Shown: positions 1-21,809, counted from the first letter of the stretch. The stretch: 33,057 nucleotides of DNA from an uncultured Microcaldota archaeon (GCA_903921825.1 CAIXRF010000090.1:1-33057); one strand, 5' to 3'. Translations and numbers: made by a program. The notes: a model not told the origin generated them from the sequence alone.

Positions 1-1167
1 ACTGCACCCACAACTACAGCAACAGCCATCAAATCCGACACTTCAACTTACACCAACAACACCTGGACAAACAGCCCATACGTGAACGTCTCCCTGGGCT
101 GCGATGACGGCCTAGGTTCAGGCTGCAACATAAAGCAATACTGCACCGGCGCCTCCTCATGCACACCAGACACAACCTACTCTGCCACACTCCAGGTCAA
201 CACCGAAAACATATCCTACTTCTGCTACCGCAGCAACGACACAGTAACCAACCTGGAGACCACAAAGTGCCTCATCATAAAGATAGACACCACTGCACCC
301 ACAACTACAGCAACAGCCATCAAATCCGACACTTCAACTTACACCAACAACACCTGGACAAACAGCCCATACGTGAACGTCTCCCTGGGCTGCGATGACG
401 GCCTAGGTTCAGGCTGCAGCATAAAGCAGTACTGCACAGGCCCAACTTCCTGCACCCCAGACACAACCTACTCCACAGTAGTCCCAATCAACACAGAGGA
501 CACGTCGTACTTCTGCTACCGCAGCAACGACACAGTAACCAACCTGGAGACCACAAAGTGCCTCATCATAAAGATAGACACCACCGCACCCACAACTACA
601 GCAACAGCAATCAAGAATGACAGTTCTTCATATACGAACAACACCTGGACAAACAGCTCGTACGTGAACGTTTCCCTATCCTGCGATGACGGCTCAGGTA
701 GCGGCTGCAGCATAAAGCAATACTGCGCAGACACATCTTCATGCACCCCATCTCTAACCTACTCCGCAGCAGTCCAAGTCAACACGGAAGGCCCGTCGTA
801 CTTCTGTTACAGAAGCAACGACACAGTAACCAATCTGGAAACCACAAAGTGCTTCGTCATCAAGATAGACACGACACCCCCCACAACCACTGCAACAGCC
901 ATCAAATCCGACAGCTCAAGCTACACCAACAACACCTGGACCTCCAGCCCATATGTGAATGTCTCCCTCTCCTGCAATGATGGCTCCGGCTCAGGCTGCA
1001 GCATAAAGCAATACTGCACAGACACTAACAACACTTGCACACCCTCATCCACCTATTCCTCTGCTGTGCGGATATCCACCCTGGCCACATCATACATCCG
1101 GTACAGGTCCAATGACACGTTTGGCAACCTGGAGGCCACGAAATCCTTCACGCTAAAGATAGACACG
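1..1167 (+). repeat. Four tandem 291-bp (97-aa) repeats within the surface protein gene
   Basis: Unit starts at 1, 292, 583 and 874 (exact 291-nt period); the fourth unit has one extra codon. Confidence 0.93.
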
Positions 1168-2544
1168 GCCAGCATCATAGCCTGCCCCTATGCGATAAAC
1201 TCAAACGGCTACTACGTCCTCGGCGGCAACATCACCTCGCTGACCACGACGTGCATAGGCATAGGCTCGGGCGCCGCAGGCGCCATTCTGGATTGCCTGG
1301 GCAACTCAATAACGGGCAACGGTACTGCATATGGCATATACCTGAACGGTGCGACCAATATCACGATACAGAACTGCACCGTGAAGAGATTCGAACGCGG
1401 GCTCTACCTCAGCAACTCCAAGAATGACCTCATCCGTGGCAGCACGTTCACGCAGAATAACAACGGCGTGCACGTCTACACGAGCAGCAGCAACAACATC
1501 TTCATGAACAACAACATCTCCCTCAACCTTAACATGGGGGTGCTCGTCCAATCCGCGGTTGGCAACGTCTTCACTGCAAACGAAGTGTGCAGCAACCCGA
1601 ACTATGACGCATACTGCGGCAGCGCGCAGCCTGGTGGGAGCAATACCTGCAACGTATCCAAAATCTCATGCAGCGGGATAACATGCGGCTCGGCCTGCGG
1701 AGTCACGCCAACCCCCACCCCAACACCGACACCCACGCCAACTCCAACCCCGACGCCTACGCCTACTCCAACGCCCACGGTTACGCCTACGCCTACCGTG
1801 ACGCCAACCCCCACGCCAACACCAACTCCGACCGTGACGCCTACTCCAACTCCAACCCCAACGCCTACGCCCACCCCAACTCCAACGCCTACGCCAACCC
1901 CCACGCCAACTCCCACCCCGACCCCAACACCCACCCCCACTCCAACGCCGACACCTACGCCTACACCCACCCCAACCCCATCGCCTGGCGGGACGGTCAT
2001 TACCTCCTGCCCCTACACGATAAACGTGCCGGGCAACTACACCCTCCACTCCAACCTGCAATCAACCAGCGGAACGTGCATAGGTATAAACTCAGGGGGC
2101 AGCGGCGCGAAGCTTGACTGCGCCAGCCACACAATCAACGGCTCAGGGACGGGCTACGGCGTATACATCAACGGCGCGAGCGGCGTGACGGTGCAATACT
2201 GCACGGTGACGCACTTCGACAAGGGCATCTACACGAGCAACGCCAAAAACAACCTCCTCAGCCACGACGTCCTTACAAACAACAACTACGGTGCCTACCT
2301 CTATTCCAGCAGTAACACCAACACAATCAGCCATACGACCATGAACAGCAACACCTACGAGGGGTTGCTCGTGCAGAATTCTCTAACCAACAACGTGACC
2401 GCCAGCCAGATTTGTTTCAATGGCGACTCGCTGCATGACCTTTACTGCTCCGCGGCACAGAGCGGGAACGGTGGCAACACCTGCACTACCTCGAGGGTTT
2501 CCTGCGGCGGAGTGACGTGCAGCGTATCCTGCAGCCCGCCATAA
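1..2544 (+). CDS. Large secreted surface protein, 5'-truncated: four 97-aa Cys-containing tandem repeats, parallel beta-helix (NosD/PbH1-like) region, Pro-Thr linker, second beta-helix region
   Basis: Frame 1 is open to base 1 ([20 protein letters not shown]...), so the real start lies upstream of the ORF-track start at 82. Repeats [13 protein letters not shown]...[51 protein letters not shown] is typical of beta-helix repeats; long (PT)n linker. Confidence 0.85.
1708..1986 (+). repeat. Low-complexity Pro-Thr linker-coding tract
   Basis: Alternating ACN/CCN codons encoding (PT)n between two beta-helix domains. Confidence 0.93.
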
Positions 2545-2640
2545 GACACCAGCTTCTTTTCCTTTTCTTCTTCTCATGCCGAGCCAGCGCTAGGAAGGTT
2601 TAAAACGCAGCCCACCAAAGCCAGTATCGGGTGAGATTGA

Positions 2641-4134
2641 ATGAAGTCGCCACTCTGGCTGCTTATCGCCGCAATGCTGCTGTTCGGCTGCGTACAGCCG
2701 AACCGCGAATACGTGTGCCCGGACGGGAGCGTAGTTGACAATCCGACCCTGTGCGCGACTCCGACCCCCACTCCGACTCCGACGCCTACGCCCGTTCCTA
2801 CGGCGACCGTCACGCCCATTCCCACAGTGACTCCCTCGTCAGCCCCAACAGAAACGCCAACGCCCACCCCGATTCCAACTGCGACGCCAACGCCCACGCC
2901 AGCCCCAACGCCCTCTGAACTGCGTGCCTGCGGCACCATAGACTCCCCTAATAATTACACCCTAGGCAGCAACCTGAGCTCTTCCGGCGACTGCATAGTG
3001 CTCAACCCCGGCGCAAGCGGCTCAACGCTCAACTGCAAAGGCCACAACATCACGGGTCAGGGTGGAAGCAGCACCGGCATCTATCTCAATGGAGTTAGCG
3101 GAGTTACCGTGAAGAACTGCCACGTCAGCAATTTCCATGACGGCATCAGCCTGTCCAATTCGCGCAGCAACACCATAGCGAACAACACCGCCAACTTGAG
3201 CAGCCACGGAATCTACCTGTCGTTTTCGAGCGGCAACAACATAACTGGCAACGCCGCAACCTCAAACCTGGCAGGCATCTACCTGTGGGAGTCGAGCAGC
3301 AACAACACGATAAGCGCCAATACTTTCAGCCTGAACGGCGACGGCATCTTCCTGTCCGGCTCGAGCAACGGCAACACCGTTAGGGGCAACATAGCCAGCG
3401 TGAACTATGACAGGGGCGCCTACGTGCTGGGCACAAGCGGCAACACGTTCAGCAGCAATACGCTCTGCAACAATACGGTTGGCGATTTAAGTTGCGACCA
3501 GCCCCTGAATAACAGCAACGGGAACACGTGCAGCAGCATTAGCAACAACACCTGCGGAATCAACTGCACCAACTGCACGCTTTCGTTCCAGTTGCCTACT
3601 CCGGTGCCAACGCCTGCGCCCAACGTTATCCTCATCTCTTCGTGCCCGCGCACCATCAACACTTCAGGCACCTACATCCTCAACAACAGCATCAATGGCT
3701 CCGGCGCCGCCGCGTGCATAACCATATCCAGTGCAGGGAGCGGCTCAACGCTCAATTGCCATGGCTATCGCATCAACGGCACTTCGCAAAACGGCACCGG
3801 CATCGCCCTCAATGGCTCGAGCGAGGCGACCGTCATGGGCTGCAACGTCATCGGATTCTACTACGGCATTTACCTCAACAACTCGAACGGCAACGTCCTG
3901 ATTAACAACAACGCCAATTCGAACTTCATCGGCGTCTACCTCAGCGGCTCGGGCAGCAACAATTTCATAAGCAACACGGCAACCGACAACACCTATGACT
4001 TCCTTTGCGCCACCCAGAACCCGAATAACGACCTCGGCGGGAACGCATGCAGCAACGAATACCAGTGCGGCACGGCTTCAGGCGGCTGGCTCTGCAGCTG
4101 CCCGGCCAACGCATGCGCGACTCCAACGCCGTGA
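2641..4134 (+). CDS. Predicted lipoprotein: PT-rich linker plus two beta-helix (NosD/PbH1-like) domains
   Basis: N-terminus MKSPLWLLIAAMLLFGCVQP has a lipobox (LFGC); repeated GIYLNGVSGVTVKNCHVSNFHDGISLSNS / GNNITGNAATSNLAGIYLWESSSNNTI motifs; TATA-like ggtttaaaac about 40 nt upstream. Confidence 0.85.
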   Translation: MKSPLWLLIAAMLLFGCVQPNREYVCPDGSVVDNPTLCATPTPTPTPTPTPVPTATVTPIPTVTPSSAPTETPTPTPIPTATPTPTPAPTPSELRACGTIDSPNNYTLGSNLSSSGDCIVLNPGASGSTLNCKGHNITGQGGSSTGIYLNGVSGVTVKNCHVSNFHDGISLSNSRSNTIANNTANLSSHGIYLSFSSGNNITGNAATSNLAGIYLWESSSNNTISANTFSLNGDGIFLSGSSNGNTVRGNIASVNYDRGAYVLGTSGNTFSSNTLCNNTVGDLSCDQPLNNSNGNTCSSISNNTCGINCTNCTLSFQLPTPVPTPAPNVILISSCPRTINTSGTYILNNSINGSGAAACITISSAGSGSTLNCHGYRINGTSQNGTGIALNGSSEATVMGCNVIGFYYGIYLNNSNGNVLINNNANSNFIGVYLSGSGSNNFISNTATDNTYDFLCATQNPNNDLGGNACSNEYQCGTASGGWLCSCPANACATPTP

Positions 4135-9758: not shown

Positions 9759-11654
9759 TTGGATAACATAGCGGAGATGCAGAAGAGCTTAGAGAACGTG
9801 CTTCCGCCCGAGTCAGGGCTCGCGCGGGTTGAGTTCGAGGGGCCGGACGTCGCCATATACCTGAAGAACATCAAGGCGTTCTATTCCGATGAGAACCTCA
9901 TAAGGAAGATAGCAGGGATTCTGAGGAAGCGCGTCATAATACGCAGCGACCCTTCGGCGCTCATGCCGCCGGACCAGGCTCTCGCAAAGATAAAGGAGAT
10001 AGTGCCCACCGAGGCGGGCGTCACGGACATAAAGTTCTCGCCCGAGTTCTGCGAGGTCTGGATAGACTCGCTCAAGCCCGGGCTCGTGATAGGGAAGGGC
10101 GGCTCCACGCTGAAGCAGATAATACTCGCCACGGGCTGGGCGCCCAAGATACTCCGCACGCCCACCATGCCCTCCGACACGATTAAGGGCATACGTGCAG
10201 CCTCGCTCAAGGACTCGGAGAACAGGAAGAAGTTCCTCACGAGCCTCGGGAAGAAGATTTGCGCGCCCCTAATGAAGAGCGACTGGGTGAAGGTTACCGC
10301 CCTTGGCGGCTTCCGGGAGGTCGGGAGGAGCTGCATGCTCGTCCAGACGCCCAACAACAAGATTTTGATTGACTGCGGTGTGAACCCGGAGACAAGCGAG
10401 GGAACGCGCGCCTTCCCCTACCTGAACGCGATGAACGTGCCGCTCGACGAGCTTGATGCAGTCATCTGCACGCACGCGCACCTCGACCACTGCGGCTTCA
10501 TCCCCTACCTTTATGCTTACGGCTACGACGGCCCGGTCTACTGCACGCCCCCAACGCGCGACCTGATGGCGCTGCTGCAGTTCGACTACCTCGACGTGCT
10601 CGCGAAGACGAGCGCGAACCCGCCCTACCAGGAGAAGGACATACGGAAGGAGCTCTCCCGCGTCGTCGTGCGCGACTACGAAGAGGTAACCGACATCTCG
10701 CCCGAGATAAAATTGACTTTCCACAACGCGGGCCACATCCTCGGCTCCGCGATGGTCCATCTCCACATAGGCGAGGGGTTGCACAACCTCGTCTGCAGCG
10801 GGGACATCAAATACGGATTTACGAAGCTTTTCGAGCCCGCGAACACCATCTTCCCACGCGTGGAAACCATATTCATCGAGTCAACATACGGCGGCCACGC
10901 GGACATAATGCCGCGCAGGCAGGAGACGGACAAGCGCCTGATGGAGCAGATACACCAGATAATCACGAACAAGGGCAAGGTGCTCATCCCAGTCTTTTCC
11001 GTGGGGAGGGCGCAGGAGATAATGCTCGTGCTCGAGGAATATGCGCTCGCCCACGGCGAGACTTTCGAGTGCCCTGTCTACATCGACGGGATGACGCTCG
11101 AGGCGTCCGCCATCCACACCGCCTACCCAGAATATTTGAAGCCATCGCTCCAGCGCAGAATCCTTTCCAACCGCTCGCCTTTCGAGAGCAAGATTTTCGA
11201 AGTTGTGAAGGGCGACCGCAAGGCCATCGTCGAGGGCGACCCGTGCGTGATAGTCGCGCCCTCCGGCATGCTTTCCGGCGGCCCGTCCGTAGAATACCTC
11301 CGCATGATGGCGGAGGAGGCAAAGAACATGCTCGTCTTCGTCGGCTACCAGTCCTCGCTTTCCATGGGCCGCAGGATACAACGGGGCCAGCGCGAAGTCC
11401 CGACGACTTCGCGCGACGGGAAGCTGGAGTCGATGAAGATAAACATGCAGATTGAGACTGTTGAAGGGTTCAGCGGGCACTCGGACAGGAACCAGCTCGT
11501 CAGCTTCCTGCGCAACATCAAGCCCGCGCCCGAGCGCATCTTCACGAACCACGGGGACGAGAACAAGTGCGACGACCTCTCCCGCAGCATAGGGCGCTAC
11601 ACCCGCATCGAGTCCCGTGCGCCAATGAACCTCGACGCTATCAGGCTGAGGTAG
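9759..11654 (+). CDS. KH-domain metallo-beta-lactamase/beta-CASP ribonuclease aCPSF1 (FttA)
   Basis: N-terminal KH region (GLVIGKGGSTLKQI), THAHLDHCGF, GHILGSAM, FIESTYGG, PSGMLSGGPS, GHSDRNQL; C-terminus MNLDAIRLR; TTG start. Confidence 0.95.
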   Translation: MDNIAEMQKSLENVLPPESGLARVEFEGPDVAIYLKNIKAFYSDENLIRKIAGILRKRVIIRSDPSALMPPDQALAKIKEIVPTEAGVTDIKFSPEFCEVWIDSLKPGLVIGKGGSTLKQIILATGWAPKILRTPTMPSDTIKGIRAASLKDSENRKKFLTSLGKKICAPLMKSDWVKVTALGGFREVGRSCMLVQTPNNKILIDCGVNPETSEGTRAFPYLNAMNVPLDELDAVICTHAHLDHCGFIPYLYAYGYDGPVYCTPPTRDLMALLQFDYLDVLAKTSANPPYQEKDIRKELSRVVVRDYEEVTDISPEIKLTFHNAGHILGSAMVHLHIGEGLHNLVCSGDIKYGFTKLFEPANTIFPRVETIFIESTYGGHADIMPRRQETDKRLMEQIHQIITNKGKVLIPVFSVGRAQEIMLVLEEYALAHGETFECPVYIDGMTLEASAIHTAYPEYLKPSLQRRILSNRSPFESKIFEVVKGDRKAIVEGDPCVIVAPSGMLSGGPSVEYLRMMAEEAKNMLVFVGYQSSLSMGRRIQRGQREVPTTSRDGKLESMKINMQIETVEGFSGHSDRNQLVSFLRNIKPAPERIFTNHGDENKCDDLSRSIGRYTRIESRAPMNLDAIRLR

Positions 11655-11655
11655 G
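11630..11655 (+). repeat. Direct repeat copy 1 (aCPSF1 3' end): cctcgacgctatcaggctgaggtagg
   Basis: 25/26 identical to copy 2 at 12442-12467; encodes the C-terminal residues and stop codon of aCPSF1. Confidence 0.9.
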
Positions 11656-11684
11656 AATAAATAGTTCTCCTGAGCGCTATTTGC

Positions 11685-12461
11685 ATGATAACGACCATGG
11701 TAAGACCCACGCCTACTGCGAAAAACGATAAAGCTGAGAAGGCAGACCAAATACAGAAGCTATTCGACGAAGGGAACAAACTTTACAACCAGGGCAAGAT
11801 TAAGGCGGCATTGGACTTCTATGAGGAGGTATTGAAAGCCGACCCCGAGTTCGTCAAGGCATGGAACAACAAGGGAATCTCACTTTATAGGCTGCACAAC
11901 TACGGCGAAGCGCGTAAGGCCCTTGAAACGGCAGTGGCGAAAAGTCCTGGTCTCACAGCGCCATGGCACAACCTGGGAATGGTACTACTCGCTCTAGACC
12001 AGCCACGGGAAGCGCTGAAAGCTTTTGATGTAGCATTGGGAATACGGCCAAAATATCCCGAAGCATTGTGCAACAAGGGAAACGCGCTTTACTTGATCTG
12101 GCAGATGGATAAACACAGAGAATCACCTGGAATCTACGAAGAAATATTGAATACAATGCCGGACTACGGGGCAGAGTATGAAGATGGACTCAAAGAAGCA
12201 CTTGATGCCTACGACGAAGCATTGAAGATAAAACCTGACTATGCAGAAGCGTGCTACGCAAAAGGAGTCGTACTGCTCAACATATGCCACTATAACGAAG
12301 CGTTGGAAGCATACAACGAGGCATTAAGGATAAAACCTGATTTCGAAGATGCATGGCACAATAAAGGGGCCACGCTTTGGCATATGCATGAGCTTGACGA
12401 GGCTGAAAAGTGCTTCAAAAAGGCAAGGGAACTCCACGATGCCTCGACGCCATCAGGCTGA
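11685..12461 (+). CDS. Tetratricopeptide-repeat protein
   Basis: Repeated A..Y.EAL...P....AW.NKG..L motifs (FVKAWNNKGISLYRLHNYGEARKALETAVAKSP; YAEACYAKGVVLLNICHYNEALEAYNEALRIKPDFEDAWHNKG); more AT-rich codons than neighbours. Confidence 0.92.
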   Translation: MITTMVRPTPTAKNDKAEKADQIQKLFDEGNKLYNQGKIKAALDFYEEVLKADPEFVKAWNNKGISLYRLHNYGEARKALETAVAKSPGLTAPWHNLGMVLLALDQPREALKAFDVALGIRPKYPEALCNKGNALYLIWQMDKHRESPGIYEEILNTMPDYGAEYEDGLKEALDAYDEALKIKPDYAEACYAKGVVLLNICHYNEALEAYNEALRIKPDFEDAWHNKGATLWHMHELDEAEKCFKKARELHDASTPSG

Positions 12462-12467
12462 GGTAGG
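12442..12467 (+). repeat. Direct repeat copy 2: cctcgacgccatcaggctgaggtagg
   Basis: Overlaps the end of the TPR CDS in a different reading frame from copy 1. Confidence 0.9.
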
Positions 12468-12475
12468 CAAAGCTT

Positions 12476-12507
12476 TTTATAGCTCGCTATAGCTAACTAT
12501 AGCATGC
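12476..12507 (+). promoter_or_regulatory. Promoter/operator of the toxin-antitoxin pair: TATA box plus three 10-bp-spaced TATAGC elements
   Basis: TATAGCTCGC TATAGCTAAC TATAGCATGC at 12478-12507; includes perfect inverted repeat GCTATAG-CTAA-CTATAGC (12486-12503) abutting ATG 12504. Confidence 0.65.
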
Positions 12508-12743
12508 AAAACACGACGATACAGGTTTCCAGGAAGCTGAAGGGGAAGCTGGACAGCCTCAAGCAGCACCCGCGCGAAACCTACAGCGAAGTGATAGAGA
12601 TGCTTTTTAACCTCGTTCCAAAGGGCGATGAGGAAGGCGAGTACACGGACGAGTTCAGGCTCGCCTGGCTGCGCGGGGAACTGGACCTGCTTGCGGGCAG
12701 GACCGTTTCAATGGCGGAAGCAAAGAAGCGGCTAGGGTTGTGA
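12504..12743 (+). CDS. Type II antitoxin (RelB/VapB-like, probable ribbon-helix-helix)
   Basis: MQNTTIQVSRKLKGKLDSLKQHPRETYSEVIEMLF N-terminus; located 1 nt upstream of a RelE-like toxin. Confidence 0.82.
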   Translation: MQNTTIQVSRKLKGKLDSLKQHPRETYSEVIEMLFNLVPKGDEEGEYTDEFRLAWLRGELDLLAGRTVSMAEAKKRLGL

Positions 12744-12744
12744 G

Positions 12745-13005
12745 ATGCCGTTTTCTGTCGAATTGAGCGAGCTGGCATTGCGCCAGCTGCGTATCCTTGG
12801 GAAGGCGGAAGCGGAGCGAATATTCGCAAAACTTGCCGACGCTGCAGCCGACCCAAACCACTATTTCAAGCGCCTAACGGGCCACGAGGACTTCAAACTG
12901 CGGGTGGGCGATTACCGTGTTGTCGTCCGCATAAACAAGGCTAAAGGACGCATTTTCGTAAGGCTTATCGGCCACCGAAAGCGAGTCTACAAAGACCTCA
13001 GGTAG
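12745..13005 (+). CDS. RelE/ParE-family toxin
   Basis: MPFSVELSELALRQLRILGKAEAERIFAKL...LTGHEDFKLRVGDYRVVVRINKAKGRIFVRLIGHRKRVYKDL, canonical RelE pattern. Confidence 0.92.
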   Translation: MPFSVELSELALRQLRILGKAEAERIFAKLADAAADPNHYFKRLTGHEDFKLRVGDYRVVVRINKAKGRIFVRLIGHRKRVYKDLR

Positions 13006-13023
13006 CCATCAGGCTGAGGTGGG
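13005..13023 (+). repeat. Direct repeat copy 3: gccatcaggctgaggtggg
   Basis: 18/19 identical to copy 2; starts at the last base of the toxin stop codon. Confidence 0.85.
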
Positions 13024-13056: not shown

Positions 13057-14022
13057 ATGAAAAAATTACTACAGCACAACACCCCCGAGGCTACTCCTTG
13101 CGGGAAGCCCGCCGCGCTCATAGGCCGCACGGAAGACATACAGAAAATCGTGATGGGCCTCTACTTCAGGACGAGGGAGCTTGAGAAGGGGGAGGTAGAG
13201 CTGGCGCGCGACGTCCAGCAGGAAACCGACGAGGGGAGGCGCGCGCCAATGCGCGACAACCTGGAGAAGGTCCGCGCCGAACTCAAGACCGTGCGCGAGA
13301 CGATGAACGAGTGGGGCGCGAAGCAGGCGCCGTCGGACTACAAGTCAGCGGCCGTGAAGGGCAGCACAATAGGCTTTGTCACGGCCGGGGCGAGCCTCCT
13401 CATAGAAGGCGCCGTCATCAGTGTGCTTGAGGGCGTCCAGCAACTGCAGTTCCTTGCGCACGGGCTCTACGAGTGGGCGTTCCTCGGGCTGATGGGCCTG
13501 GGGCTTGCAGTCAGCGTCGGCGCAACCATGGACGGGGTGTATTCAGTACGCTCCGGGGTGGACCACTGCGAGAGGATGGTCGACCAGGCGGTGGGCGAAA
13601 TCCTGAAGGCGCAGGGCATGGGCTGCGGGTACTGGGCGCGCAGGAAGGCGCGCTGGATGTTCATGAACAACATCCGCATCACGCCCAGCAGCGTCCTGCT
13701 CCCGAAGAGCGAACTGCTTGACAGCGCGAACGAGGCGCTGAAGGCGGACGAGCCGCGCGACTATTCCCGCGGGGACATATACGTCAAGGTGAACCCCGAC
13801 GCAACAGCCATCTACAAGAAGAACGGCCGCCCCATCGTAGTGAAGTGCGCTGAGGGCTTCGGCGTCTGCGGCGAGGACGGCGAGTTCACCGGATTCGCCA
13901 ACTACTCGTCAAACAACATGAACCTCACCTCGCTCCAGAGGAGGCTCGAGCACATAAAGCACTACCTGATGAAGGAGCCGCAGCTCAGCCAGCAGCCGCA
14001 GGCCGTCGTGCGCGGGTTCTGA
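13057..14022 (+). CDS. Membrane-associated protein of unknown function (helical N-term, TM hairpin, C-terminal domain)
   Basis: Hydrophobic segments STIGFVTAGASLLIEGAVISVL and WAFLGLMGLGLAVSVGATM; TATA-like atttatatt and aggag RBS upstream. Confidence 0.75.
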   Translation: MKKLLQHNTPEATPCGKPAALIGRTEDIQKIVMGLYFRTRELEKGEVELARDVQQETDEGRRAPMRDNLEKVRAELKTVRETMNEWGAKQAPSDYKSAAVKGSTIGFVTAGASLLIEGAVISVLEGVQQLQFLAHGLYEWAFLGLMGLGLAVSVGATMDGVYSVRSGVDHCERMVDQAVGEILKAQGMGCGYWARRKARWMFMNNIRITPSSVLLPKSELLDSANEALKADEPRDYSRGDIYVKVNPDATAIYKKNGRPIVVKCAEGFGVCGEDGEFTGFANYSSNNMNLTSLQRRLEHIKHYLMKEPQLSQQPQAVVRGF

Positions 14023-14062
14023 CCAGCAACGCATTTATACACCCTTTTGCCAACAAATTAGC

Positions 14063-15058
14063 GTGTTTCTCGACCGAACCGATGTCCTCATTATAGAGGA
14101 GCTCTCGCGGAACAGCCGGGTCATGCTTAAGACGATGGCCGAGCACGCCAACGTCTCAATCAAGAAGGTGGGCTACAGGCTGAAGAACCTCGAGAAGAAG
14201 CTCGGCATCCACTACACAATAGAGCCCGAGCTCACGACCACCGGCCTCCCCTACGAGTTCCTCGTGCGGGCGAAGCTGAACGCCAAGCCTGACGTGAAGC
14301 ACCTCAGGGAGCTCCTGCTCCCGATGCCGAACATCCAGTTCGCTGCGCTTGCCGACGGCGACTTCGACCTCTTCATGTGGGGCCTTGCGCCATCCTCCTC
14401 CGCCTATTCCCAGAAGGTGGAGCCCGCAATCCGCGCAGGGCTGGAAGACTACCTCTCCGAGTGGAATGCGCACCCGCTCCTCGCGCGGCGCGCGGGCTTC
14501 TTCCCGGTGGACAACGCGCTCATCAGCACGCTCGCAATCCGCGAGTCACGCAGGAAGGTGCTCCGCATCCTGAATGAGAACTCGCGCATACAGGTGATAA
14601 ACCTAGCGGAGATGCTCGGCGTGGAGGATTCCACCGCGGAATACCACCTCAAGCGCGCCAGGCCATTCATAAGGCGCTTCACCGCCTACTTCGAGGGCAG
14701 GGGCGACTTCCTGCACATCGCCCGCTTCCTCCAGCTGCGCGGCAAGGGGATGGACTTCCAGGTGGATGGCAGGCGCATCTCCGAGCTCTACCTGAAGAAC
14801 GACCCGCGCCTCTTCAACCGCCTCGTCTATGCGGCAACGCCATCTGGCGGCTTCGACACCTTCCTGTTCGAGAACTTCACATCCCTCGAGGACCATGAGG
14901 CGTTCGAGGAGAGCATCAAGTCGCACCACAACATTATAGGCAAGCACGAAAGCGCGAAGATTACGAAGGTGCTCAAGGGCGCAATCCCAATACGCAAGGT
15001 TGACTTGTCCTCGGAATGCAAATACCTGCTCTCCCCCGCGGAAGTGCCGGGAGATTGA
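14063..15058 (+). CDS. Lrp/AsnC-like transcriptional regulator with two HTH regions
   Basis: LDRTDVLIIEELSRNSRVMLKTMAEHANVSIKKVGYRLKNLEKKLGI and second HTH SRRKVLRILNENSRIQVINLAEMLGVEDSTAEYHLKRA; GTG start after gcatttatac TATA. Confidence 0.82.
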   Translation: MFLDRTDVLIIEELSRNSRVMLKTMAEHANVSIKKVGYRLKNLEKKLGIHYTIEPELTTTGLPYEFLVRAKLNAKPDVKHLRELLLPMPNIQFAALADGDFDLFMWGLAPSSSAYSQKVEPAIRAGLEDYLSEWNAHPLLARRAGFFPVDNALISTLAIRESRRKVLRILNENSRIQVINLAEMLGVEDSTAEYHLKRARPFIRRFTAYFEGRGDFLHIARFLQLRGKGMDFQVDGRRISELYLKNDPRLFNRLVYAATPSGGFDTFLFENFTSLEDHEAFEESIKSHHNIIGKHESAKITKVLKGAIPIRKVDLSSECKYLLSPAEVPGD

Positions 15059-20351: not shown

Positions 20352-21809
20352 GTGACTCGGCCGGCGGTGATTTCTGTGGTTGAACTGAAGCCTTTGGGTC
20401 CTGCGAAGTGGCAGGTTCCCTCCGAGGGGAAGATTCCGGTCTGGCTCTATGCGAACAGGGAGCTGGCGGAGAGCATGGGCCGCGACCGCACGCTCTGGCA
20501 GGCGCAGAACGTCGCGAAGCTGCCCGGAATCATCAAGGCATCGGAAGTGATGCCCGACGGCCACGAGGGCTACGGATTCCCGATTGGCGGTGTGGCTGCG
20601 TTCGACATGGAGGACGGAATTATCTCACCCGGCGGAGTTGGCTATGATATTAACTGCGGCGTCAGGATGATACTCACGAACCTCACTGTTGCTGAAGTCA
20701 AGCCGAAGATTGGGGACCTGATGTCCAAGCTGTTCGCCAACATCCCTTCAGGCGTCGGAAGCAAGGGAAGAATCCGGCTCACGAAGGAGGAGTTGGCTGC
20801 GCCGCTCCGCGAGGGGGCGCAGTGGGCCATCTCGAAAGGTTATGGCTGGAAGGAGGATTCGGAGCGGATTGAGGAGAACGGCAGGATGGAAGGGGCGGAC
20901 CCGTCGAAGTGCAGCGACATGGCGATGAAGCGTGGCGCCCCGCAGTTCGGCACGCTTGGCGCAGGAAACCACTTTTTGGAAGTGCAGAAGGTTGCGGAAA
21001 TCGTGGATGAGAAGACTGCGAAGGCATTCGGAATCGAGGCGAAGGACCAGGTAGTGATAATGCTCCACTGCGGCTCGCGTGGCTTCGGGCACCAGGTCTG
21101 CGACGATTACATCCGCGTCATGCTGCAGGCGTCGCAGAAATACGGAATCAATTTGCCTGACAAGGAATTGTGCTGCGCGCCAATCAACTCAAAGGAGGCG
21201 CAGGATTACGTCGGCGCGATGTATGCGGCAGTAAATTACGCTTTCTGCAACAGGCAGGTTATGACGCACTGGATAAGGGAAACGTTCCAGGATGTCTTCA
21301 AGAAATCGCCTGATGCGCTCAACATGCACATTGTCTACGACGTGTGCCACAACATCGCAAAATTCGAGGAGCACAAGGTGGACGGCGGAGCCAAGCAAGT
21401 CTGCGTGCACAGGAAAGGCGCGACAAGGGCTTTCGCAGCCGGAAGGAAGGAAATTCCGCAAATCTACAGGAGCGTGGGGCAGCCCGTCATCATCCCCGGG
21501 AGCATGGGAACGGCGAGCTACCTGCTCGTGGGAAGCGAGGGCGCGATGAATGAGAGCTGGGGCTCCACCTGCCATGGCGCAGGCAGGACGATGAGCCGCC
21601 ACGAGGCAATCCGGAGGTATCCCGCAGGGATGGTTGAGGGCGAGCTGCAGAAGAAAGGAATCGTCCTGAGGGCGACGGGAAAGGAAATCATCTCCGAGGA
21701 GGCATCGGGCGCTTACAAGGACGTTTCAGCAGTCGTCTCCAGCGTGCAGGAGGCGGGGCTCTCCCGCATCGTGGTCCGGCTCGAGCCCATGGGCGTTGCG
21801 AAAGGATGA
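20352..21809 (+). CDS. rtcB: tRNA-splicing/RNA ligase RtcB
   Basis: MPDGHEGYGFPIGGVAAFDMEDGIISPGGVGYDINCGVRM, LGAGNHFLEVQ, LHCGSRGFGHQVCDDY, GSMGTASYLLVGSEGAMNESWGSTCHGAGR; exact GTG start uncertain. Confidence 0.95.
   Translation: MTRPAVISVVELKPLGPAKWQVPSEGKIPVWLYANRELAESMGRDRTLWQAQNVAKLPGIIKASEVMPDGHEGYGFPIGGVAAFDMEDGIISPGGVGYDINCGVRMILTNLTVAEVKPKIGDLMSKLFANIPSGVGSKGRIRLTKEELAAPLREGAQWAISKGYGWKEDSERIEENGRMEGADPSKCSDMAMKRGAPQFGTLGAGNHFLEVQKVAEIVDEKTAKAFGIEAKDQVVIMLHCGSRGFGHQVCDDYIRVMLQASQKYGINLPDKELCCAPINSKEAQDYVGAMYAAVNYAFCNRQVMTHWIRETFQDVFKKSPDALNMHIVYDVCHNIAKFEEHKVDGGAKQVCVHRKGATRAFAAGRKEIPQIYRSVGQPVIIPGSMGTASYLLVGSEGAMNESWGSTCHGAGRTMSRHEAIRRYPAGMVEGELQKKGIVLRATGKEIISEEASGAYKDVSAVVSSVQEAGLSRIVVRLEPMGVAKG

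Follow-up and report, generated by a model that had tools for sequence, protein, structure and literature searches.

Copies of the aCPSF1 3′ end bound apparently mobile gene modules in two archaeal genera

The 3′ end of a tRNA is the classical target of integrases, and in the icd prophages of E. coli (phage 21 and e14) the incoming DNA exchanges the terminal bases of an essential gene for a functional copy of its own. Among thaumarchaeal elements, 14 of 68 were mapped in the 3′-distal parts of protein genes, and casposons occur in tandem in ef-2 (PMC6563490). The pdif (Xer) modules of Acinetobacter are small, often carry toxin-antitoxin genes and lie between short recombination sites, at which a recombinase supplied in trans shuffles them (PMC6449649, PMC13141974). 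Integrons and integrase-less cassette arrays (CALINs) have been reported in archaeal MAGs (PMC9668308). In our literature search, the aCPSF1 end was nowhere described as an integration site. To our knowledge, little is known of how DPANN archaea with small genomes acquire genes, among them those for toxin-antitoxin systems and defence. The aCPSF1 locus offers a concrete and testable case in which two genera have common modules in permuted order, with empty and filled sites.

The window is the whole stretch of DNA that was analysed, 33,057 nucleotides in length. Its sequence places the host among the DPANN archaea, in the Diapherotrites/Iainarchaeota, and among the named contigs of the species collection the nearest comes from a Ca. 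Iainarchaeum MAG (aCPSF1 identity 81%). The order of the array in this genome is aCPSF1-TPR-copy-TA-copy-membrane protein, where TA is a toxin-antitoxin module and each copy repeats the 3′ end, or tail, of aCPSF1. Its features are as follows.

9759..11654, + strand: aCPSF1 (FttA), the target gene; ORF with Pfam KH_TffA, Beta-Casp and RMMBL; C-terminus NLDAIRLR.
11630..11655, + strand: tail copy 1, the aCPSF1 coding end and stop (LDAIRLR-stop).
11656..12441, + strand: TPR module, comprising a promoter/leader of its own (aataaatag) and the greater part of the TPR gene; GC 48%.
11685..12461, + strand: TPR-repeat protein, 258 aa; ORF; Pfam TPR_1, 1.2e-36.
12442..12467, + strand: tail copy 2, 25/26 with copy 1; the aCPSF1 frame still gives LDAIRLR-stop.
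12468..13004, + strand: toxin-antitoxin module, with promoter, operator-like palindrome, antitoxin and toxin.
12486..12503, no strand: perfect palindrome GCTATAG-CTAA-CTATAGC, directly before the antitoxin start, found in the sequence.
12504..12743, + strand: antitoxin-like protein, 79 aa (DUF7557); Pfam PF24434, 8.9e-07.
12745..13005, + strand: ParE/RelE-type toxin, 86 aa; Pfam ParE_toxin, 1.5e-07.
13005..13023, + strand: tail copy 3 (GCCATCAGGCTGAGGTGGG), starting within the toxin stop codon, on its final base (13005).
13057..15058, + strand: right backbone, a membrane protein (321 aa) and an Lrp/AsnC-like regulator (331 aa), orthologous to and in the same order as in the relative G003; dS about 1.

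The small antitoxin and the ParE/RelE toxin share an operon, as in a type II toxin-antitoxin system, and would be predicted to act as one. The palindrome before them, kept in G003 with one mismatch, is likely a putative operator for autoregulation. The TPR gene takes its final codons and stop from tail copy 2 and is AT-richer than its surroundings, with a GC content of 48%, whereas aCPSF1 has 60% and the downstream gene 63%. At the far left, window positions 1-4134 encode two large proteins in which Cys-containing and Thr-Pro stretches recur; they are probably surface proteins.

A reading made from the sequence alone had proposed that the aCPSF1 end occurs three times, the copies lying 812 and then 556 bp apart, as the result of repeated site-specific insertion or duplication. 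A motif search bore out the copies, all of them on the + strand, and their spacings. With up to 3 mismatches allowed, CCATCAGGCTGAGGTRGG gave 3 matches in the window, where shuffled sequences gave an expectation of 0.08, and 3 matches in the whole 1.25-Mb genome, all of them at the aCPSF1 array. Chance recurrence and a common promoter element distributed over the genome are thereby ruled out. Copies 1 and 2 are identical in 25 of 26 bases, and copy 3 has 18-19 bases in common with the others. The ORFs agree with the proposed overlaps, in that copy 1 is coding, copy 2 covers the end and stop of the TPR gene in a frame other than that of aCPSF1, and copy 3 shares its first base with the end of the toxin stop. 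Because only copy 1 is read in the frame of aCPSF1, conservation of the protein does not explain all three. The first bases of copy 3, GCCATC, are the native 3′ flank of the toxin gene as seen in G003. A TATA-like stretch does lie 3′ of each copy, as had been noticed, and is no more than the promoter of whichever gene follows.

We compared the locus with that of the nearest sequenced relative, G003, which belongs to another genus of the same family (aCPSF1 identity 85%). Its order is aCPSF1-RidA-TA-small TPR-copy-TPR-copy-membrane protein, followed by Lrp and the backbone as in the present genome. G003 likewise has two additional tail copies, arranged differently: that between the small TPR and TPR genes is a remnant of 34-37 bases of the aCPSF1 end, and the later one is tail-like. 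Since a similar structure is found in this independent assembly, an error of assembly does not account for the array described here. Both genera have the TPR and TA modules, in reversed order, and as a result two places are filled in one genome and vacant in the other, the TA site being vacant in G003 and the RidA-TA site in the present genome. The empty sites for which the sequence-only reading had suggested a search in sister genomes were thus found.

Divergence between the two genera is low within the modules and high around them. DNA identity is about 92% for TPR and 91.6% for the TA block (antitoxin included); aCPSF1 reaches 80% and the right flank about 67%. As expected of horizontally acquired modules, dS is 0.16-0.20 within them (toxin 0.16, TPR 0.20) and 1.00-1.13 in the flanks (Lrp 1.00, aCPSF1 1.03, membrane protein 1.13). 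In a DNA search of 301 genomes of the phylum, both modules were found only in the present genome and G003, at the aCPSF1 locus, the remaining matches being short fragments. Low module dS, together with the restriction to one locus, indicates that one lineage or both received the modules recently, and the occurrence of the same modules at the same place in reverse order in a related genus indicates that they moved recently. Judged by this divergence, the TPR and TA modules were acquired horizontally, later than the separation of the two genera, and arrived at one shared gene end, that of aCPSF1. The phylum-wide tail screen found no tail copies in other members of the family of the two genomes, and the array is not conserved across the phylum.

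The joints themselves show where identity changes. Over its final 61 bp, the TPR module shows one difference between the genera. Tail copy 2 then has 7 differences, with 19 of 26 bases identical (binomial P = 0.004 against the module average, with boundaries picked after the data had been seen). These differences are mostly synonymous in the aCPSF1 frame, which fits host-derived tails to the right of an insert. The G003 remnant leads into the TPR leader that in the present genome stands behind the aCPSF1 tail. As GCCATC also follows the toxin gene in G003, copy 3 may be read as the end of the TA module joined to a tail by means of those six bases.

We favour, as a tentative but quite possible explanation, integration of a circular element bearing the aCPSF1 tail by recombination at that tail. 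The circle would carry the modules together with its own tail copies and would recombine with the chromosomal tail; aCPSF1 would still have a full end, now of foreign origin, and its former end would survive as a remnant beyond the modules. If a circle with two modules (TPR-tail-TA-tail) opened at one tail or the other, the result would be TPR-TA in the present genome and TA-TPR in G003; the order in G003, reversed and with tail copies at the matching joints, agrees with this prediction. A microhomology deletion at GCCATC may have trimmed copy 3 and taken with it the small-TPR segment that G003 retains, and RidA may have been lost in the present genome or gained in G003. The recombinase would have been provided in trans or lost since. 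Against this explanation, RidA and the small TPR gene require separate loss or gain, similar terminal duplications occur at unrelated sequences in G003, and neither array contains a recombinase.

The search for an enzyme or carrier extended beyond the arrays. The sequence-only reading had seen no recombinase in the window, and we agree, since neither the window nor the inserts of the two genomes contain an integrase or other mobility gene. It had also suggested a tyrosine recombinase in trans; the present genome, a MAG that is 89% complete, gave no match to PF00589 (tyrosine integrase), and no match to PF00239 (serine resolvase) was obtained in four genomes including this one. An integrase within the element or in the same genome, as would mark a tyrosine-integrase element, was therefore not found. 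G003 has three tyrosine recombinases, none of which adjoins its aCPSF1 array. The full-length one, of 408 aa (G003:C36, L104:5800-7201), lies beside a 31-bp duplication of a tRNA 3′ end, which was read by eye, ARAGORN calling no tRNA at the site. We rejected it as the enzyme of the array because of this position and because no counterpart was detected in the present genome. An identical 31-bp tRNA 3′-end duplication stands at the end of contig C5 of the present genome (L115:3792-3905), and a tRNA element there may therefore be cut off by the assembly. Viral contigs and plasmids searched for the tail or the modules yielded no carrier.

In order to place the array within the phylum, we screened 301 genomes for the aCPSF1 tail, which was recognisable in 140. 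Linked repeats were found in three, and the present genome, whose second copy falls just outside the pattern of the screen, is the fourth. In G235 a perfect 166-bp repeat flanks an insert of 4762 bp that has genes for Fic, radical SAM and methyltransferase proteins, and in G075 a 39-bp repeat (39/39) has a 37-bp spacer; these duplications are independent events. In the present genome, G003 and G235, inserts have a direct repeat of the gene 3′ end on either side, as do tyrosine-integrase elements integrated at such an end. The apparent second tail copy in G055 proved to be a contig overlap, and matches in G249 and G175 and a second rtcB match in G243 lie on separate contigs and were not counted. 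A control screen with rtcB gave linked repeats in none of 77 genomes, so that the frequency at aCPSF1 (4/140 versus 0/77, p = 0.30) is not significantly higher and a statistical hotspot relative to the rtcB end is suggestive only. The G235 insert (G235:C1, L085) includes a short ORF that by eye resembles an IS1 InsA-type zinc ribbon, without a Pfam match. In G015 (G015:C13, L042:598-795), another ParE-type toxin, 52% identical across the matched part, lies directly behind and convergent with aCPSF1, without a tail copy.

Duplications of the same kind were also seen at other genes in a terminal-duplication screen based on samples, namely about 0.78 Mb of G003, 188 kb of the present genome and other relatives. 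At the 5′ end of rtcB in G003, an AbiEi-AbiEii toxin-antitoxin pair is accompanied by a perfect 32-bp duplication (G003:C30, L106:6645-8210); the same site, at 20352 in the present window, is vacant. Behind the archaeal histone gene (G003:C30, L141:11763-13169), a 457-aa gene with weak likeness to DIT1/PvcA is bounded by a perfect copy of the histone 3′ end (25/25 bp), and both ORFs end in EFEN-stop. A hairpin-rich insert of 152 bp at the junction of a fused pyrEF with pyrC duplicates the pyrEF end (25/25; G003:C15, L034:8800-8976), and short terminal duplications occur at cbiO/cbiQ and YjbQ. Their lengths in G003 are 24-37 bp, and mid-gene controls gave no duplications. In the sampled part of the present genome aCPSF1 was the only case, and the samples of other relatives had few or none. 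Three loci of G003 (L095, L135, L140) also have short repeated intergenic palindromic elements with GGTTCAGGAACC or CCATTGGTTCT, possibly a REP/MITE-like family.

These cases raise the alternative of a general insertion process with target duplication, in which fragments are captured genome-wide at staggered breaks or by some form of transposition, a filled-in overhang leaves a duplication of 20-40 bp, and aCPSF1 is one case among several. Only at a gene end would such a duplication leave the gene intact, which would be why events are noticed there. The unrelated sequences of the G003 duplications, among which common insert ends were not seen, speak for it. It leaves unexplained, however, why two modules are confined to one locus in both genera, permuted and with matching joints; the spread of duplication lengths, 19-37 bp and up to 166 bp, is unlike a transposase of fixed stagger; and no Cas1 (PF01867) or casposase was detected in the present genome, G003, G235 or G075. 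We consider this alternative somewhat unlikely. From the G003 cases, the array may be one outcome of a broader insertion process in the family, and the wider gene-end-duplicating insertions of G003, including the AbiE pair at rtcB, may share its mechanism.

The proposal of repeated site-specific insertion at the aCPSF1 end is thus partly supported. Its core is right: copies of an essential gene's end bound mobile modules, as seen from dS, permuted order, empty sites and independent duplications in other genomes. An exclusive, att-like specificity for aCPSF1 is not supported, given the G003 duplications at other gene ends, one of them a 5′ end, repeat lengths that vary between about 19 and 37 bp and reach 166 in G235, the p value of the hotspot comparison and the lack of an assigned recombinase; dedicated site-specific integration is unproven.

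Ordinary homologous or microhomology recombination, in which DNA of relatives is anchored in the conserved aCPSF1 and joined illegitimately downstream, with the repeated tails arising from tandem duplication and deletion, is in our view unlikely. The perfect 166-bp repeat of G235 is long enough for homologous recombination and copy 3 resembles a microhomology junction at GCCATC, but tails of 19-37 bp are short for the normal homologous process, and the high identity between genera stops short of the aCPSF1 body and the right flank, with its edges in the tails. Coincidence, or a recurring promoter or other regulatory sequence without a link to mobility, would suit the TATA-like stretch after every copy but is extremely improbable in view of the motif counts given above and the demonstrably recent arrival (by dS) of the modules between the copies.

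The favoured circular-element explanation can be set beside the known systems. As in the icd prophages, the gene end is replaced, and the 166-bp repeat of G235 is similar in length to theirs; unlike them, the aCPSF1 inserts have no integrase, and the tails in the present genome and G003 measure only 19-37 bp. As with archaeal 3′-distal elements, the 3′ end of an essential gene is entered, its end is kept and direct repeats flank the insert, and as with the ef-2 casposons one site is used repeatedly to give arrays; the aCPSF1 inserts differ from the thaumarchaeal elements in being gene-sized and without integrase, casposase or other mobility gene (PMC6563490). The variable rather than fixed repeat lengths and the lack of a Cas1 homologue also set the array apart from casposons.

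Like pdif modules, the modules here are small, one is a toxin-antitoxin pair and short repeated sites bound them (PMC6449649, PMC13141974). In contrast, the aCPSF1 site is the coding end of a gene and not a 28-bp dif site of dyad-symmetric 11-6-11 structure, the array is not on plasmids and its repeat length varies. The tails have only imperfect short arms where a dif/Xer site has two inverted arms of 11 bp and a 6-bp spacer, and convincing dyad symmetry was not found in the copies (folding z -0.6 to -2.8), which form weak hairpins at most. In common with integrons and CALINs, small modules in the same orientation each have a repeat at the 3′ end with no integrase nearby (PMC9668308). The aCPSF1 repeats differ in being 19-26-bp copies of a gene end that, copy 3 excepted (z -2.8), fold no better than shuffled sequences and so lack attC-like folding, the modules have their own promoters, and the present genome lacks a PF00589 match. 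It is conceivable, though rather doubtful, that the aCPSF1 coding end is the capture site of a recombinase-less cassette system of Diapherotrites, in which circles with a replacement gene end would carry gene-sized modules (toxin-antitoxin, TPR, RidA) between genera, with insertion, permutation and loss at this site through a recombinase in trans. The array lacks features that define each of the known classes, yet it works like the known 3′-end elements and the integrase-less cassette arrays.
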